DNA from: SAR202 cluster bacterium
Lineage (GTDB): Bacteria > Chloroflexota > Dehalococcoidia > Lucifugimonadales > VGZR01
NCBI GenBank assembly: GCA_016872515.1
Contig: VGZR01000003.1
Span: forward strand, 1 to 64,000
Length of the DNA stretch: 64,000 nt
Reading direction: 5' to 3'
Made by a program: the position numbers and the translations under genes. Shown here piece after piece: positions 7,711 to 15,220 of the stretch; within the stretch, counting starts at the first letter, position 1, and the number at the start of each line of letters is the position of its first letter. Below the pieces are notes generated by a model that did no database searches, had not been told where the DNA came from, and saw nothing but the letters and a program-made list of their open reading frames with translations.

Positions 7711-8163
7711 CTAGTCCTGGCGCCCGGTCAGCTCATCTTCGAGCGTTGTCCACGGGAGAAGGGCGCACTTTATTCGGACGGGGAACTCGCGCACCTGCTC
7801 CAGTGCCCGCAGGTCGGCGTGGCCCTGAAACACCCAGTCGGTGGATGACTTGCCGTCCATCATGGCGCGGACGGCCTGGGCCAGCGCGGACATATGAGCA
7901 GGGGTCTTGTCCTCCAGGGCCTCGGCCATAATGGAGGCGGAGGCCCGGTTGATGGAGCAGCCGACGCTCTGGACGCCGACGCGTGCCGCGCGGCCATTCT
8001 TGAGCGCCACCTGAAGGTGGACTTCGTCGCCGCAGAACGGGTTCACGCCGTCGGCGCGCAGGTCGGCGGGCTCTACAGGGTTGGAGTTGCGGGGGTTGCG
8101 GCAGTGGTCGAGGATGACGTCGCCGTACAGGTCATCCAGGTCGGTTTGCGCGCTTTGTGCCAT
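7711..8163 (-). CDS. sufU: SufU-type Fe-S scaffold/sulfur-transfer protein, copy 1
   Basis: A 150-residue U-type protein with the three metal-ligand cysteines Cys44, Cys69 and Cys133 and Asp46 (FCGDE). It has the insertion between the second and third cysteine that separates SufU from IscU. In Firmicutes, SufU takes sulfur from SufS in a zinc-dependent way. It is the last gene of the suf operon and overlaps the end of sufS by 32 bases, so it is coupled to its probable sulfur donor. A second sufU lies upstream in the same operon (10196-10648); the two proteins differ clearly in sequence. Confidence 0.9.
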   Translation of the reverse strand: MAQSAQTDLDDLYGDVILDHCRNPRNSNPVEPADLRADGVNPFCGDEVHLQVALKNGRAARVGVQSVGCSINRASASIMAEALEDKTPAHMSALAQAVRAMMDGKSSTDWVFQGHADLRALEQVREFPVRIKCALLPWTTLEDELTGRQD

Positions 8164-9385
8164 CCGTGAAATACCTCAGGGCGTCCTTGAGCACCGCCAC
8201 CAGCTTGTCCACCTCTTCCTCGGTATTATAGATGTACAGGCTGGCGCGGGCCGTCGCGACGATGCCCATGGCGCGCATCAGCGGCATCGTGCAGTGGTGG
8301 CCGGTGCGGATGGCGATGCCCTCGCGGTCGAGGTACGTCCCCAGGTCGTGGGGGTGCACCTCGCTGTTGTGGAAGGGCAGGATGCCGCCCCGCTGCGACA
8401 CGTCCATCGGCCCGAAAAGGTCTAACTCCTCGATCTGCTTGAGCTGCGAGAGCGCGTACTGAGTGAGCTGCTTCTCGTGCTCGCGGACGTTGTCCATGCC
8501 GAGCGCCGTGAGGTAGTCCACCGCCGCACCCAGGGCGATGGCGTCGGCGATGTTGGGCGTGCCGGCCTCGAACCGCATCGGCAGCCCGTTCCACGTCGCC
8601 CGGTCGTTCCAGACCTCCAGCACCATCTCGCCGCCGCGCAGGAACGGCTCCATCTTCTCCAGCACGTCGGGCTTCACGTAGAGCGCGCCGATGCCGGTCG
8701 GCCCCAGCATCTTGTGGCCGGAGAACGCCAGGAAGTCACAGTCGAGGTCTTTCACATCCACCGGCATGTGCGGAACGCTCTGCGCGCCATCTATCAGCAC
8801 CTTCGCGCCGAAGGCGTGGGCCTTCTTCGTCAGGCTCTTCACCGGGTTGATGGTGCCCAGGGAGTTGGACACCTGGTTGATGGCCAGCAGCTTCGTTTTA
8901 CGGGTGATGAACGAGTCCGTCTGGCTGGGATCGAGGACGCCTTCCTTCGTGATGGGTATCACCTGTAGCGTCGCGCCGTTGTCGCGGGCCACCTTCTGCC
9001 AGGGGACGAGGTTGCTGTGGTGCTCCATCTGCGATACCACGATCTCGTCGCCAGCCTTGATGTTCGCGGCTGCCCACGTGTAGGCCACCAGGTTGATGGC
9101 TTCGCTGGTATTGCGTGTCCAAATGACCGACTCGGGCTTGGGCGCGCCGATGAAGCGGGCGACCTTGTGCCGCGCCTCCTCGTACTTGTCGGTGGCCTCC
9201 ATGCTCAGTGCGTGGACACCCCTGTGGACGTTGGCGTTGTACCCCTCGTAGTAGTCCACCAGCGACTGGATGACGCTGTGCGGCTTCTGTGACGTCGCCG
9301 CGTTGTCGAGATACACGAGCGGCTTCCCGTACACCTTGCGGTCGAGTATGGGGAAGTTCTTCCTGATAGCCTTTACGTCTAGCAC
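8132..9385 (-). CDS. sufS: SufS cysteine desulfurase (PLP-dependent)
   Basis: The 417-residue enzyme takes sulfur from cysteine as a persulfide for Fe-S cluster assembly. The PLP lysine is in SGHKMLG (Lys225) and the active-site cysteine in RTGHHCTMPLM (Cys365), the short group II type loop typical of SufS. The frame opens at a TTG at 9394, but GTG 9385 has GAGAGG ten bases upstream and is the better start. It sits between the Rieske gene and sufU copy 1. Confidence 0.95.
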   Translation of the reverse strand: MLDVKAIRKNFPILDRKVYGKPLVYLDNAATSQKPHSVIQSLVDYYEGYNANVHRGVHALSMEATDKYEEARHKVARFIGAPKPESVIWTRNTSEAINLVAYTWAAANIKAGDEIVVSQMEHHSNLVPWQKVARDNGATLQVIPITKEGVLDPSQTDSFITRKTKLLAINQVSNSLGTINPVKSLTKKAHAFGAKVLIDGAQSVPHMPVDVKDLDCDFLAFSGHKMLGPTGIGALYVKPDVLEKMEPFLRGGEMVLEVWNDRATWNGLPMRFEAGTPNIADAIALGAAVDYLTALGMDNVREHEKQLTQYALSQLKQIEELDLFGPMDVSQRGGILPFHNSEVHPHDLGTYLDREGIAIRTGHHCTMPLMRAMGIVATARASLYIYNTEEEVDKLVAVLKDALRYFTDGTKRANRPG

Positions 9386-9412
9386 GACGCCCAAACCTCT
9401 CTGTGCTGAACC

Positions 9413-9718
9413 CTACGCATCCACTTCGATGTCGCCGCCAGCCATACGCACCTTGAATGTGTCCACCGGCACGACCGCAGGGCCGTTCGTCACGGCGCCG
9501 GTGCGCACGTCGAACCGAGACCCATGGCACTCGCACTCGATGTCATGGCCTTCGATGAAGCCGGTATTCAGGTTGCACTCTGCGTGCGAGCAGATGTCGT
9601 CAATGGCATAGAACTTCCCTTCGATATTGCACACGCAGACGGTCCGGCTGCCGACTTCAAAGGCCTTTGCCGTCCCTGGTGGAATCTCCGATGCCTTGCT
9701 GATTTTCTTGAATGCCAT
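9413..9718 (-). CDS. Rieske-type [2Fe-2S] ferredoxin
   Basis: A 101-residue small Rieske protein, like the ferredoxin components of ring-hydroxylating dioxygenases. Cluster ligands are Cys43 and His45 in CSHAECNL and Cys62 and His65 in CECHGSRF. There is no signal peptide, so it is cytoplasmic. Its position inside the suf operon, between rrf2 and sufS, suggests an electron-transfer role in cluster assembly rather than in a dioxygenase. That role is inference from context. Confidence 0.9.
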   Translation of the reverse strand: MAFKKISKASEIPPGTAKAFEVGSRTVCVCNIEGKFYAIDDICSHAECNLNTGFIEGHDIECECHGSRFDVRTGAVTNGPAVVPVDTFKVRMAGGDIEVDA

Positions 9719-9749: not shown

Positions 9750-10187
9750 CTATCCTACCAGCGCCAGGCCGCGGTCGGCGGCCCTGACGCGTTCAACTAG
9801 GTCAGCGATGGTAGTGGCGTCGAGGATCTTCCGCATCGCCTCCTCCACCACGCCCCATACCTCGCGCTGGGTGCAGTTGGCGGAGATGCCGCAGTTGCTC
9901 AAGTCGTCCATGCACGTCACCAGCACCGGCATACCGCCAAGGCAGTCCATCACCATTCCCATGGTGATGGACGCGGGCTCCCTCGCCAACCCGTGGCCGC
10001 CCTGTGGGCCGCGTTGGCTGGCGACCAGGCCCTGCCTGTTCAGCGTTAGCAACACCCGCGCGAGGAATGGCTCGGGGATGCCTTGCCGCTTGGCGATGTC
10101 CGCCGCGTGCACCGGCCCGTGGCCCGCGTGCTCCGCCAGGTCCACCAGCGCCCGTATCCCGTAGTCAACCTGAACCGGCACGTGCAT
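9750..10187 (-). CDS. Rrf2-family transcriptional regulator (IscR/SufR-like)
   Basis: A 145-residue winged-helix regulator. The N-terminal DYGIRALVDLAEH and the IPEPFLARVLLTLNRQGLV helix-turn-helix segment are typical of Rrf2 proteins. Three cysteines (Cys92, Cys99, Cys105) match the Fe-S ligand cluster of IscR, but the spacing is C-x6-C-x5-C and the position of the IscR histidine ligand appears to be Arg. It is encoded inside the suf operon with a GAGGTGA ribosome site, and is the obvious candidate for binding the inverted repeats upstream of sufB. Confidence 0.9.
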   Translation of the reverse strand: MHVPVQVDYGIRALVDLAEHAGHGPVHAADIAKRQGIPEPFLARVLLTLNRQGLVASQRGPQGGHGLAREPASITMGMVMDCLGGMPVLVTCMDDLSNCGISANCTQREVWGVVEEAMRKILDATTIADLVERVRAADRGLALVG

Positions 10188-10195
10188 AGGTCACC

Positions 10196-10648
10196 TCACT
10201 CTGTTGAGACCGTGCCGCCCTCATCCTTGAGAGCCGCCTTCAGCGTATGCCAAGCCAACACCGCGCACTTCACCCGCGTCGGGAACTCCGCCACCCCCGC
10301 CAGTACCTCCAGTTCGCCTAGCCCATCCACCTCGTACTTGCCGCCTGGCCCTCGCGTCACCATCTTGTGGAACGACTCGAAGATCTCCTGCGCCTCCTCG
10401 ACCGTCTTGCCTTTGACGGCCTCGGTCATTATGGATGCCGATGCCTTGGAGATGGCGCACCCTTTGCCCACGAAGGCCGCGTCCGTGATGCGGCCTTCGT
10501 CCATCTTCAGGAACACTGAGACCATGTCGCCGCAGAAAGGGTTGTAGCCGTCGGAGTGTTTCTCGGCATCCTCGATGCGCCGGAAGTTCCGCGGGCGGCT
10601 CCCGTGGGCCATCACGACCTCTTGATACAGTTCTCCCAGTTCGGTCAT
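10196..10648 (-). CDS. sufU: SufU-type Fe-S scaffold/sulfur-transfer protein, copy 2
   Basis: A 150-residue SufU with ligand cysteines Cys39, Cys64 and Cys128 and Asp41 (PFCGDM), plus the SufU insertion (GPGGKYEVDGLGELEV). The N terminus MTELGELYQEVVMAHG is the canonical one, so this copy looks closer to a standard SufU than copy 1. It starts inside the sufD stop (ATGA-type four-base overlap) and is followed by the regulator gene. Confidence 0.9.
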   Translation of the reverse strand: MTELGELYQEVVMAHGSRPRNFRRIEDAEKHSDGYNPFCGDMVSVFLKMDEGRITDAAFVGKGCAISKASASIMTEAVKGKTVEEAQEIFESFHKMVTRGPGGKYEVDGLGELEVLAGVAEFPTRVKCAVLAWHTLKAALKDEGGTVSTE

Positions 10649-11994
10649 GGCCCTTGATTCTTGCTCCTGAACTGGTACTTCGGCAGCGACTCGATGAAGT
10701 AGAGCTCCAGGTACTGCCGGAACCCGTCTAGCTTGATCTGGTCAATGACTTCCCGGGCGAAACCCTGGACGAGGTACATAGTCGCGGTCTCGACATCGAG
10801 GCCCCGCGCCTGCATGTAGAAGATGGCCTCTTCGGCTACCGCTCCTGCCGTGGCGCCGTGCTTGCACTGCACGTCGTCGGCGTAAATCTCCAGGCTCGGC
10901 TTGGTGTTGATGCGCGCCCCGTCCGAAAGTAGCAGGTTCTTGTCCGACTGCAAGGCATACGCCTTCTGTGCGTCCTTGTGCACGATGACCCGCCCGCTGA
11001 ACACCGCCCGTGACCTATCGGCGAGGATGCCCTTGAAGTAGAGGTCACTGGTCGTGTGGGGCTTCAGGTGGTCAATGTTGATGTTGTTGTCAATGTGCTG
11101 CGTTCCGTCTGTGAGATACAGCCCATTGATGAAGCACGAGGCACCCGGCGCGTCCAAGGCCACGTGGAGTTGGTTGCGGGCGATGGCGGCGCCGCGCGCG
11201 AAGGAGATGGACGTGAAGGTGCTGTCCTTCTCCTGGCGCACCTGCGTCGTCCCGATGTGGAACGCCTCCGCAGCTTCACGCATCAGGCGGTAGTGTTGCA
11301 TCTGAGCGCCCTCTTGCAGGATCACCTCTGCCACGCCGTCGGTGAAGTAGGCGCCATCGGCCAAGGTCACATAGCTTTCCAGCAGGGTCGCCTTGCTGTT
11401 GCGGCCAGCCACCACGAGGATGCGCGGGTAGGCCACGGAGGGCTGTGGCCGCCGCGAGGCCACGAACACCAGGTGCACCGGCGGCAGGTCCGCCGCCCCG
11501 TCAGGCAGCGCCACGAAGGCGCCATCGCGCACGAATGCGGTGTTCACCGCCGCAAAGCCGTTCTTCGCCGCGTCAACGTGCCGCCCAAGATGCTGCCGCG
11601 CCGCAGCCTGGCCGGCCGCGGAAAGGGCAGCTAAGTTGCCTATGTATGGCCCTTTGCGGTTCATAGCGGGAGTGGACAACCCCTGGTCGAACCGCCCATC
11701 AACGAAGACCAGATTCACCCATCCGTCGTCCCACGGCGACAGGGCCTTCACCTGTGCGGCATCCACCGACGCCTGTTCGAAGGGATAGGCGAACTGCCGG
11801 TTGGCGATGGGGCCGACGTTGGTGAAACGCCAGTCCTCGTTGCCGCGTATTGCAGTAGGGAAACACAGCTTGCTGAAGCTCTCCACCCCGGCCTGCCGCA
11901 TCTCGTTCAGCCAGGCGTCCCCATTGGAGAGCGACTTCTGGAAGTGGACGAAGTCGGCCTGGTACCGGTCGTATCGTGTCGCTGTTTGGGTCAT
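10645..11994 (-). CDS. sufD: Fe-S cluster assembly protein SufD
   Basis: A 449-residue member of the SufB/SufD beta-helix family. The N-terminal helical part leads to the GNEDWRFTNV motif, and the C-terminal part has the NLLLSDGARINTKPSLEIYADDVQCKHG-type core (split here as NLLLSDGARINTKP and EIYADDVQCKHGAT) that forms the SufB-SufD interface. SufD pairs with SufB and the SufC ATPase as the cluster scaffold. It follows sufC by 10 bases and overlaps sufU copy 2. Confidence 0.95.
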   Translation of the reverse strand: MTQTATRYDRYQADFVHFQKSLSNGDAWLNEMRQAGVESFSKLCFPTAIRGNEDWRFTNVGPIANRQFAYPFEQASVDAAQVKALSPWDDGWVNLVFVDGRFDQGLSTPAMNRKGPYIGNLAALSAAGQAAARQHLGRHVDAAKNGFAAVNTAFVRDGAFVALPDGAADLPPVHLVFVASRRPQPSVAYPRILVVAGRNSKATLLESYVTLADGAYFTDGVAEVILQEGAQMQHYRLMREAAEAFHIGTTQVRQEKDSTFTSISFARGAAIARNQLHVALDAPGASCFINGLYLTDGTQHIDNNINIDHLKPHTTSDLYFKGILADRSRAVFSGRVIVHKDAQKAYALQSDKNLLLSDGARINTKPSLEIYADDVQCKHGATAGAVAEEAIFYMQARGLDVETATMYLVQGFAREVIDQIKLDGFRQYLELYFIESLPKYQFRSKNQGP

Positions 11995-12004
11995 TGGCGC
12001 ATCG

Positions 12005-12799
12005 TCACCGTGCGGTGCCCGCCGACTCTTTCAGCCAGTCGTAGCCCTTCGCCTCCAGCTCATGGGCAAGCTCGGGGCCGCCCGAGAGGGCGATGCGTCC
12101 GTCCACGAGCACGTGGACGAAGTCTGGGGTGATGTAGCCGAGCAGCCGCTGGTAATGGGTCACCAGGAGCACGGACCGTTCTGGCCCACGCCGCTTGTTC
12201 ACGCCGGCGGCGACGGTCTTGAGAGCGTCTATATCCAGCCCGGAGTCGGTCTCGTCCAGCAGAGCGAGGCGCGGTTCCATGAGAGCCAGTTGAATCATCT
12301 CGTTGCGCTTCTTCTCGCCGCCGGAGAAGCCCTCGTTGACCGAGCGCTTCATCAGGTCGGCGTCCATCTCCATCTCCTTGACGGCGGCCTTGAACATGGC
12401 GTCGAACTCGCGTGCGCCGATCTCAGGCAGGCCGCGGTGTTTGCGAAGGGCGTCCACGGACGCCTTCATGAACTGCCAGGGGCGGACGCCGGGCAACTCG
12501 ACCGGGTACTGGAAGGCGAGGAAGACGCCCTCTCGTGCCCGCCGGTCGGGCAGCATGGCGAGAAGGTCCTGGCCCGCGTAGTGGACTTGGCCTGCGGTGA
12601 CGGCGAAGTCGGGCCTGCCGGCGATCACGTTGACCAGGGTGCTCTTGCCGCTGCCGTTGGGGCCCATGACGGCATGGACCTCGCCGACGTTCACCGTCAG
12701 GTCCACGCCTTTGAGGATCTCCTGGCCGGTGGCGGTCACGGCGGCCCGAAGGCCCCGGACCTCCAACAGGGGTTGCTTTGTGCCGTTCGTGGATGCCAT
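12005..12799 (-). CDS. sufC: Fe-S cluster assembly ATPase SufC
   Basis: A 264-residue ABC-type ATPase. Walker A GPNGSGKST lies at residues 46-54, the signature FSGGEKKRNE near 168 and the Walker B LALLDETDSGLD just after it; the EGxFSGGEKKR form and the DETDSGLD box are specific to SufC. It powers conformational change of the SufB-SufD scaffold. It sits three bases downstream of sufB. Confidence 0.96.
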   Translation of the reverse strand: MASTNGTKQPLLEVRGLRAAVTATGQEILKGVDLTVNVGEVHAVMGPNGSGKSTLVNVIAGRPDFAVTAGQVHYAGQDLLAMLPDRRAREGVFLAFQYPVELPGVRPWQFMKASVDALRKHRGLPEIGAREFDAMFKAAVKEMEMDADLMKRSVNEGFSGGEKKRNEMIQLALMEPRLALLDETDSGLDIDALKTVAAGVNKRRGPERSVLLVTHYQRLLGYITPDFVHVLVDGRIALSGGPELAHELEAKGYDWLKESAGTAR

Positions 12800-12802
12800 G
12801 GG

Positions 12803-14290
12803 TTAGCCTACCGTTCCTTCCAGGCTGACGCGGAGAAGCTGCGACGCCTCCATGGCGAACTCGAAGGGCAGCTCCTTGAAGATGCCGCGGCAGAAACCGT
12901 TGATGATGACGTAGTGGGCCTCCTCTGGGTCGAGGCCGCGTTGCAGGCAGTAGAAGAGCTGGTCGTCGCTGACCTTGGAGGTGGAGGCCTCGTGCTCCAT
13001 GCGGGCCGTGGGGTTGCGCACTTCGATGTAGGGAACGGTGTGTGCGCCGCACTTGTCGCCGATGAGCAGGGAGTCGCACTGGGTGAAGTTGGTGGCGTTG
13101 TCGGCGGTGGGCATGATCTGCACCTGGCCGCGGTAGGTGCTCTGGCCGTGGCCGGCGGAGATGCCCTTGGCGACGATGGTGCTCTTGGTGTTCTTGCCGA
13201 TGTGGATCATCTTGGTGCCGGTATCGGCCTGCTGGTAGTTGTTGACGAGAGCGACGGAGTAGAACTCGCCGGTGGAGTTGTCTCCCTGGAGGATGACGCT
13301 GGGGTACTTCCAGGTTATGGCGGAGCCGGTCTCTACCTGCGTCCAGGAAATCTTGGAGTTCTTGCCCAGAGCCTTGCCGCGCTTCGTGACGAAGTTATAG
13401 ACGCCGCCATTGCCCTGTTTGTCGCCGGGATACCAGTTCTGGAGCGTGGAGTACTTGATCTCGGCGTTGTCGAGGGTGACCAACTCGACTACGGCGGCAT
13501 GGAGCTGGCTGGTCTTGCGAATGGGGGCGGTGCAGCCCTCGAGGTAGCTGACGTAGGCGCCCTCGTCGGCGATGATGAGGGTGCGCTCGAACTGGCCTGT
13601 GTTGGCGGAGTTGATGCGGAAGTAGGTCATCAGCTCGATCGGGCAGCGCACACCTTTGGGGATGTACACGAAGGAGCCGTCGCTGAAGACGGCGGAGTTG
13701 AGGGCGGCATAGAAGTTGTCGGTGTAGGGAACGACTGAGCCGAGATACTTGCGGACGATGTCGGGGGCCTTTTTCACCGCCTCGCTGACGGAACAGAAGA
13801 TGATGCCCTTCTCCTCTAAGGTCTTCTGGTAGGTGGTGGCGACGGAGATGCTGTCGAAGACGGCATCCACGGCGACCTTGGAGGGGCCTTCCTCGGTGAC
13901 ACCCGCCAGCCGCTTCTGTTCCTGGATGGGAATGCCCAGCTTGTTGAAGGTCTCCAAGAGCTGCGGGTCAACTTCTTCGAGGGACTTGGGGCCGGCCTGC
14001 TTCACGGGCGCAGCGTAGTAGTGGATGTCCTGGAAGTCGATGGGTGGGTGGCTGACCTTGGCCCACTTCGGCTCCTCGTAGTTGAGGGACAGGAAGTGTC
14101 GCAGGGCCTTGAGCCGCCACTCCAGGAGCCATTCCGGCTCCTCCTTCTTGCGGGATATGATGCGGACGACCTCTTCGTTGAGGCCCTTGGGAATGATCTC
14201 CGACTCGATTTCAGTGACGAAGCCCCACTTGTACTCCCGGGCGAGGTCGTCCGAGGTACTCGTCCGAGATATGACTTTCGGTGCGGTCAC
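12803..14290 (-). CDS. sufB: Fe-S cluster assembly scaffold protein SufB
   Basis: A 495-residue SufB. Typical segments include [10 protein letters not shown] near the start, [29 protein letters not shown] and the C-terminal [20 protein letters not shown] with the conserved [12 protein letters not shown] upstream. The frame opens at 14323, but GTG 14290 has a GGAGG eight bases before it and is preferred. It is the first gene of the suf operon; the promoter and two inverted repeats lie directly upstream. Confidence 0.96.
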
Positions 14291-14313
14291 TAAGTTTGCC
14301 TCCAGTGCCTGCC

Positions 14314-14336
14314 TTGGAACCATTGATCAGTTCCAA
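14314..14336 (-). promoter_or_regulatory. 23-bp inverted repeat in the suf leader (proximal operator candidate)
   Basis: TTGGAAC and GTTCCAA form perfect 7-bp arms around a nine-base spacer. It lies between the promoter and the sufB ribosome site and has the same 7-9-7 geometry as the distal repeat, 28 bases away centre to centre, but a different arm sequence. Confidence 0.5.
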
Positions 14337-14341
14337 ATTGG

Positions 14342-14364
14342 TTGTTGATGAAATTAGTCAACAA
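14342..14364 (-). promoter_or_regulatory. IscR type-1-like operator upstream of sufB
   Basis: TTGTTGA and TCAACAA form perfect 7-bp arms around a nine-base spacer. The inner 17 bases, TTGACTAATTTCATCAA on the minus strand, agree at about 15 positions with the core of the E. coli IscR type-1 box as I recall it (YYGACT, A/T-rich centre, AGTCRR). It covers roughly +5 to +27 relative to the predicted transcription start, consistent with repression by the Rrf2 protein encoded in the operon. Confidence 0.6.
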
Positions 14365-14373
14365 TCATAGCTC

Positions 14374-14402
14374 ATAGTATATCCAGCTTAGATATGAGTC
14401 AA
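14374..14402 (-). promoter_or_regulatory. Promoter of the suf operon
   Basis: TTGACT (14397-14402) and TACTAT (14374-14379) on the minus strand have a 17-base spacer. The predicted start lies near 14368, immediately before the distal inverted repeat. Confidence 0.6.
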
Positions 14403-14421
14403 CCGCTGGGCTGCATAGGGA

Positions 14422-14635
14422 ATGGATAGTGGCGGAAGTCACGATGTTTTCAAGTCACTCCGCCTGGAGTACCGTATGAAGCGTCCCTTGTACGTCAGGG
14501 TGGAGCTTGGAGGCACGGCACTGATGGTGGATCCGCGAAGCATCGAAGCACTCGTGGCTGAACTCTAACACCCTGACCCTCACGCGCCGGACAAGCAATG
14601 GCAGGCGACGCAGTCACTGGGCCAGGCGAAGACAG
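14422..14635 (+). pseudogene. Broken N-terminal part of the HEAT-repeat gene
   Basis: From ATG 14422 an open frame of 48 codons ends in TAA at 14566-14568, in the middle of what reads as a HEAT repeat: SIEALVAEL, stop, then HPDPHAPDKQWQATQSLGQAK in the same frame. The repeat then continues in another frame as RRVPALIEALG. One stop and one frameshift near 14635-14645 thus separate this part from the intact downstream HEAT ORF. A single base change of a Lys codon would give TAA. I take it as a decayed 5' end or sequence error rather than a separate small gene. Confidence 0.55.
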
Positions 14636-15220
14636 ATGCTGGTAAGGCGGGTGCCTGCGCTGATAGAGGCCCTAGGGCAGGCGTATGGGGCTCTGACGCG
14701 CGCCCATGCGGCGGAGTCGCTGGGGAACTTGGCGGATGCCAACGCAGTTCCGGCTTTGATGGGGGCGATGGGCGACCCGTATCGGCTGACGCGCTCGTAT
14801 GCCGCCCGCGCGCTGGGCAAGCTCGGAGACGCCCAGGCGATAGGGGTGCTGCTCAAGACGATGGAGGCGGACGAGTTCTTCGGCGTACGGGCGGAGGCCG
14901 CCGAGGCGTTGGGCAAGCTGTGCGAGGGTAAGGACACGGAGCAGTGCGGGAAGGTGAGGCGGGCGCTCCTGGCCCAGAAGAAGGCTGAACAGGTGCGCCA
15001 GAAGCTCGGCGCGGAAGAGGGGAGGGGCGTGCGGGGGCTGGGCGAAGTGGACCGTTCCTTGAGGCGGCTGGGGGAATTGCTGGAGCAGGCCGAGACGCAG
15101 GTCAAGGAGATCCAGTCGGCCGTGGGGCGAAACGACCTACAGGCGGTAAACAATGGAGCCAACGAGCTACGGAGTATCATGCACGAGTTCCGGACGGGGA
15201 TGCTCAACTCCGCGACCTAG
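14636..15220 (+). CDS. HEAT-repeat protein (probably 5'-truncated)
   Basis: 194 residues from ATG 14636. Residues 1-95 contain about three HEAT/PBS-lyase-type helical repeats (VPALIEALG, ESLGNLADANAVPALMGAMG, RALGKLGDAQAIGVLL, EALGKL). The rest is charged and helical, with likely coiled coil around residues 125-165. Such repeats are protein-binding scaffolds; no catalytic function is visible. There is no clear ribosome site at this ATG, and coding similarity continues upstream in two other frames, so the full protein was probably longer. It precedes the membrane protein gene by 24 bases. Confidence 0.7.
   Translation: MLVRRVPALIEALGQAYGALTRAHAAESLGNLADANAVPALMGAMGDPYRLTRSYAARALGKLGDAQAIGVLLKTMEADEFFGVRAEAAEALGKLCEGKDTEQCGKVRRALLAQKKAEQVRQKLGAEEGRGVRGLGEVDRSLRRLGELLEQAETQVKEIQSAVGRNDLQAVNNGANELRSIMHEFRTGMLNSAT

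Follow-up and report, generated by a model that had tools for sequence, protein, structure and literature searches.

A conserved inverted repeat upstream of sufB as the predicted operator of the suf operon's own Rrf2 protein in a Chloroflexota genome

The suf operon and its upstream region

The window, the whole 64 kb stretch of DNA analysed here, belongs to a draft genome of 2.28 Mb and was found to contain a suf operon on the minus strand, in the order sufB-sufC-sufD-sufU-rrf2-Rieske-sufS as given by coordinates and family profiles. The genes sufB (12803..14290, GTG start; NF008773, 854.9 bits), sufC (12005..12799; TIGR01978, 325.5 bits), sufD (10645..11994; TIGR01981, 257.9 bits) and sufU (10196..10648; TIGR01994, 160.7 bits) all scored above the cut-offs of their profiles. 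They were followed by the fifth gene, rrf2 (9750..10187), coding for a predicted Fe-S transcriptional repressor placed in the Rrf2 superfamily by TIGR00738 (119.6 bits, above the cut-off of 73.3; PF02082, 1.4e-37), and then by a gene for a Rieske-type [2Fe-2S] ferredoxin (9413..9718; PF00355, 2.1e-20) and by sufS (8132..9394; TIGR01979, 596.6 bits, above cut-off). The intergenic gaps along the series were 3, 10, -4, 8, 31 and 18 bases, and sufB to sufS would form one transcription unit. The presence of an Rrf2 gene in the same operon, reported in the initial annotation of this DNA, was thus confirmed, and the operon is tight.

A promoter scan located a -35 box TTGACT (14397..14402, minus strand) followed by a -10 box TACTAT (14374..14379, minus strand), which stands 17 nt from the -35 box and 9 nt upstream of the first inverted repeat (IR1). 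This was the sole promoter-like site in 13500-15000, where shuffled sequences gave 0.2 (sd 0.4). An alternative reading of the -10 box, TATACT at a spacing of 15 nt, was used for scoring in the multi-genome survey of positions described below. The -35 region GTTGACTCATATC (minus strand, 14391-14403) and the operator half GTTGACTAATTTC (14350-14362) were found to agree at 11 of 13 bases, and the -35 box could double as a weak operator half-site. A HEAT-repeat protein is encoded near the suf promoter region at 14636-15220, divergent from suf.

The start of sufB in the list of open reading frames was the ATG at 14323, which lies within the second inverted repeat (IR2). The GTG at 14290 appears to be the better start, because a Shine-Dalgarno sequence GGAGG (14299..14303, minus strand) was found in the sequence 8 nt ahead of it and the single congener contains the same GGAGG-N8-GTG; with this start, IR1 and IR2 would both stand upstream of the coding sequence.

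IR1, TTGTTGACTAATTTCATCAACAA, occupies 14342..14364 on the minus strand and has the form TTGTTGA-CTAATTTCA-TCAACAA with exact palindromic arms, within which a type-1-like core, GACTAATTTCATC, was found at 14347-14359. IR2, TTGGAAC-TGATCAATG-GTTCCAA, was found at 14314..14336 (unstranded, read here on the minus strand) in the predicted 5′ leader. The initial annotation had described two perfect 7-9-7 inverted repeats, 28 bases apart, between the -10 box and sufB. Both were recovered at this place, with 28 bases from start to start as well as from centre to centre and a gap of 5 bases between them. When the 150 bp upstream of sufB were shuffled 2,000 times with dinucleotides preserved, at least one 7-9-7 repeat was found in 1.05% of the shuffles and two in none, whereas any 7-N(3-20)-7 repeat was found in 12.6%. 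A lone 7-9-7 repeat is unremarkable, since the window contained 12 perfect ones. On the sequences compared, it is conservation that sets IR1 apart, and IR2 was found without such a distinction.

Conservation of the repeats and occurrence of the motif

The sufB upstream regions of 30 loci, that of the window included, served for training, and 18 sites chosen by eye were used to build a symmetric position weight matrix (PWM) with the 99% shuffle threshold, 8.43, as its pass mark. A held-out set of 26 further sufB upstream regions was obtained after the PWM had been built. The threshold was exceeded in 16 of the 17 held-out regions with a strong Rrf2 match and in 2 of the 5 without Rrf2; outside these 17 and 5, two regions with weak Rrf2 matches and two with a different SufB were found to contain no site. 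In all 56 regions together, an IR1-type site was present in 37 of 44 with a full-strength Rrf2 against 2 of 9 without (Fisher p 6e-4, with kinship ignored and 18 of the sites being training sites), three genomes with a weak or truncated Rrf2 (G028, G039 and G057) having been set aside. Genomes G011, G056 and G058 gave no sufB match.

Seven of the 44 Rrf2-containing genomes fell below the threshold. Five of them (G008, G014, G041, G044 and G050) were found to contain a variant palindrome-like site in the same place, and the remaining two (G021 and G054) use a different SufB. Genomes G024 and G047 contained a good site without any Rrf2 match; as these genomes are 81% and 71% complete, their rrf2 may be unassembled. 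A PWM made without the window's genus still placed IR1 at the top of the 64 kb window, with a score of 31.1 followed by 9.8 for the next site. In a separate set of named loci, of which 21 of 80 were kept (loci were dropped if they had no sufB, a sufB below 55% identity or one lying too close to the end), 18 of the 21 passed that set's own 99% threshold (6.39). IR1 itself is imperfect, with GATG in the second half instead of GAC and 9 of 11 palindromic pairs. The comparison of suf upstream regions of relatives, for which the initial annotation had proposed an alignment, thus found IR1 conserved, and IR1 is best described as a conserved predicted operator. At locus L195, a tandem pair of good operators, spaced by 42 bp, was found ahead of the suf genes (-4211 and -4169 relative to rrf2).

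The position of the site was found to be conserved as well. For 39 of 40 above-threshold sites, the first base lies 1-13 nt past the best -10 box, and the distances cluster twice, at 1-3 nt and at 8-13 nt, with the same order of elements as in the window. Transcription would start near the IR1-type sites, and a dimer on IR1 would span the predicted transcription start, which is the placement expected of a repressor.

The sites found here resemble those of IscR. When the PWM from this order was applied to the 2 kb that surround E. coli iscR, the two highest scores, 15.1 and 9.7, fell on TAGTTGACCAATTTACTCGGGAA and TACCCGACTAAATCAGTCAAGTA, which we take to be the two IscR type-1 sites, and the next score was 1.0. 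IR1 contains the GACT/C-N5-RGTC-like core and AT-rich arms of an IscR type-1 operator, with GATG as its second half. The earlier description of IR1 as IscR type-1-like therefore holds, with conservation at suf in relatives and the E. coli sites ranked first and second by the PWM. IR1 also contains TTGA and TCAA half-sites, as does the FNR site (TTGA...TCAA), and could be read as a site for a regulator of FNR/CRP type to which the type-1 match is incidental. The FNR half-sites are 6 apart, whereas those in IR1 are 9 apart; the site also tracks the Rrf2 gene, and the PWM picks IscR sites in E. coli, so that we regard this reading as very improbable. In PMC12594620, type-1 motifs are described as controlling the isc promoter. 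An IscR type-2 site upstream of sufB was also considered and rejected, the best minus-strand match in the 150 bp having 4 mismatches in the 9 fixed bases of the consensus.

IR2 did not share in this conservation. The initial annotation had suggested that IR2 might be a second site or bind another protein, and the comparison did not bear this out. IR2 scored -26.6 against the operator motif, and an IR2-type repeat was absent from the single congener and from the other sufB upstream regions of the 30 loci, the window's being one of them; nor did any other locus of the 30 contain a further perfect 7-9-7 repeat in the stretch from the operator to the start codon. The genome contained 32 IR2 matches against 31 for the reversed control. 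IR2 might still serve as a second regulatory element, either as the site of another protein or as a leader-RNA hairpin adjusting how well sufB is translated or how stable the mRNA is, given its perfect 7-bp arms, the 1.05% of shuffles with a 7-9-7 repeat and its hairpin in the predicted 80-nt leader, which folds at z -1.86. The leader downstream of IR1 was found to fold at z -0.35, that is, not unusually, and Rfam gave no match in 14000-14800 at E 1. The leader was rejected as a conserved RNA element, the mean over 28 leaders (the window's included) being z -0.67 with 3 below -2. With these results and the absence from relatives, such a role is considered improbable; no function is supported for IR2, which is probably incidental or lineage-specific.

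Searched in 59 genomes with at most 1 mismatch, the operator consensus gave 58 strand-hits, and the reversed control gave 6. The 35 distinct places comprised 22 sufB promoters (assigned by coordinates), 4 sufT-mrp promoters and 9 that were neither, some of these nine falling within open reading frames. The sufT-mrp operon contains a gene for a SufT-like protein (PF01883) followed by one for an Mrp/ApbC-type ATPase, and its sites were found in G012 (L127), G047 (L128), G050 (L129) and G004 (L130), which suggests a wider Fe-S regulon in these four genomes than in that of the window. Most sufT loci lacked the site: 3 of the 30 fetched pass a score of 12, and the fourth, in G004, came from the pattern search. 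A perfect copy of the motif was observed in G029 (L126, site at 1550) just after promoter-like sequence and before a gene for a solute-binding protein, SBP_bac_6, possibly with a role in iron uptake. A one-mismatch site was observed in G043 (L132, site at 553) ahead of a nitrite/sulfite reductase-like gene. Among rrf2 genes unlinked to suf, strong sites were found 83-104 bases before rrf2 in L200, L241 and L244, and many others had no clear site upstream.

In the window's own genome, IR1 was the only match without mismatch, and allowing up to 3 mismatches gave 59 matches against 50 for the control. The sufT of this genome was found to contain a promoter-like sequence upstream and no operator, and at the stringency used the regulon appears to consist of suf alone. 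One place (C11:69561), where 56 bases separate a weak match to IR1 from a weak match to IR2, was dismissed as chance; an open reading frame reads through the region.

The Rrf2 protein and its closest known counterparts

The regulator is a member of the Rrf2 family, as judged by profiles, and is not IscR itself. It scored 81.4 bits against the IscR equivalog TIGR02010 (cut-off 207.55) and 47.5 bits against NsrR PRK11014 (cut-off 182), and was also below the cut-offs of CymR, RirA and the Xanthomonas-type suf regulator. The key residues were found to be Asp8, Arg12, Cys92, Cys99 and Cys105. The Asp, the Arg and the three Cys were conserved in 48 of 48 full-length matches, the pattern of NsrR-type Cys3Asp ligation, and none of 30 had a His in the +1 to +3 positions following the third Cys, so the IscR-type His ligand is absent. 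Where IscR has Ser, Glu and Gln at residues 40, 43 and 44, the window protein has Pro, Ala and Arg, and the wing Arg59 is kept. The IscR-like character proposed earlier thus stands for the operator, which is type-1-like, and fails for the protein, which lies below the IscR cut-off, has no His ligand and contains a different recognition helix. In G004, G015 and G041, the wing Arg59 was replaced by Thr, and the suf sites of these genomes were observed to have one arm degraded. The named relatives of the protein were Chloroflexota genomes from metagenomes, many of them SAR202 or Dehalococcoidia, and the closest was 74% identical.

In Streptomyces coelicolor NsrR, according to PMC5411485, a [4Fe-4S] cluster is held by three Cys of one subunit and Asp8 of the other, with a salt bridge between Asp8 and Arg12. 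The window protein has the same three Cys, Asp8 and Arg12, and by analogy its cluster would be [4Fe-4S] with NsrR-type Cys3Asp ligation. NsrR differs in sensing NO and in governing NO-detoxification genes, and the window protein falls below its PRK11014 cut-off. E. coli IscR shares the type-1 geometry of the site, with both E. coli sites found by the PWM, as well as the wing Arg59, whereas identity is about 30%, neither the Cys3His ligation nor Glu43 is shared, and the IscR equivalog cut-off is not reached. The closest solved sequence was that of Thermincola potens IscR (PDB 4CIC, E 5.3e-25); 4CIC is identified as the T. potens protein in PMC4618611, and T. potens IscR is described as a cluster sensor of a Gram-positive bacterium in PMC9338935.

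The closest worked example is RisR of Myxococcus xanthus, from Rrf2 group IS6, which according to PMC9973013 probably carries a [4Fe-4S] cluster and in its holo form represses isc and suf through GAC-N7-GTC. Set beside this published description, the window system was found to share a suf-linked Rrf2 protein, there a repressor, with three Cys, a GAC-N7-GTC core in AT-rich flanks (imperfect in the window, where the second half is GATG) and recognition residues among which the base-contact residues of IscR are conserved in neither protein (PMC9973013). Differences were also found: isc is under RisR control as well; the RisR sites overlap -35/-10 at suf or -10 and the start at isc, whereas the window site is downstream of -10; the Cys of RisR are at 92/102/108 instead of 92/99/105; and the phyla that section 6 of PMC9973013 lists for IS6 do not include Chloroflexota.

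Proposed regulation of the suf operon

What the computation shows is the site, how it is conserved and placed, that it goes together with Rrf2, and that the ligand residues are conserved. We consider it highly likely from these sequences that IR1 is the operator of the operon's own Rrf2, with predicted repression by the cluster-loaded form and derepression on loss of the cluster. The initial annotation had considered autoregulation by Fe-S status likely, and feedback control of this kind is indeed the natural reading, because rrf2 is itself part of this tight operon. We infer the binding, the type of cluster and the sign of regulation, and the mechanism in which the holo form represses is adopted because RisR is the closest worked example. 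When Fe-S is plentiful, the Rrf2 dimer would hold a cluster, predicted to be [4Fe-4S], through Cys92, Cys99, Cys105 and the partner's Asp8, and the holo form would occupy IR1 over the transcription start and block RNA polymerase. Under repression, less Rrf2 and less of the assembly machine would be made. If clusters ran short or were destroyed, Rrf2 would release IR1, followed by derepression of the operon. IR2 would stand outside this switch.

Residue 43 bears on how far binding would depend on the cluster. The window protein has Ala43, as do 15 of the 38 genomes for which a site was tabulated. One half-site differed from GAC in 14 of the 15 Ala43 genomes against 8 of 16 Asp43 genomes (post hoc, kinship ignored), and both halves were GAC in 9 of 18 genomes with an acidic residue 43 against 3 of 20 with a non-acidic one (p 0.035, post hoc and uncorrected). 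This pattern fits the role published for Glu43 in PMC5411485, where apo-IscR E43A is described as binding type-1 sites; Ala43 could on this ground permit binding without a cluster. The same regulator might then bind the same operator with or without its cluster, the signal being redox state, NO or protein level. Ala43 in the window, the non-GAC half-sites of the Ala43 genomes and the E43A result speak for this, as does, for NO, the Asp8 ligation of the NO sensor ScNsrR (PMC5411485). RisR, too, is without the base contacts of IscR, but repression was lost when its three Cys were changed to Ala (PMC9973013), and cluster-independent binding is judged unlikely.

Cluster-dependent repression at IR1 remains the preferred reading. 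A broader proposal, that in this Chloroflexota order an NsrR-type Cys3Asp [4Fe-4S] sensor reads type-1 operators and that residue 43 sets their symmetry, with Ala tolerating GAT and Asp favouring GAC on both sides, is offered tentatively and may well not hold. If it were true, suf feedback would respond to NO or O2, and a change at one residue could shift specificity.

Feedback control of suf by Rrf2 is an already known kind of switch, and this example of it is newly described; no account of Rrf2/IscR control of suf in SAR202, Dehalococcoidia or Chloroflexi was found in the open-licence literature. Nothing known is overturned. The type-1 operator is suggested to be common to distant Rrf2 lineages with different cluster ligands, and the genomes compared provide a natural series for the study of Rrf2 specificity. 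For uncultured marine Chloroflexota, the analysis provides a concrete predicted operator and regulon for suf, which helps the annotation of their genomes.
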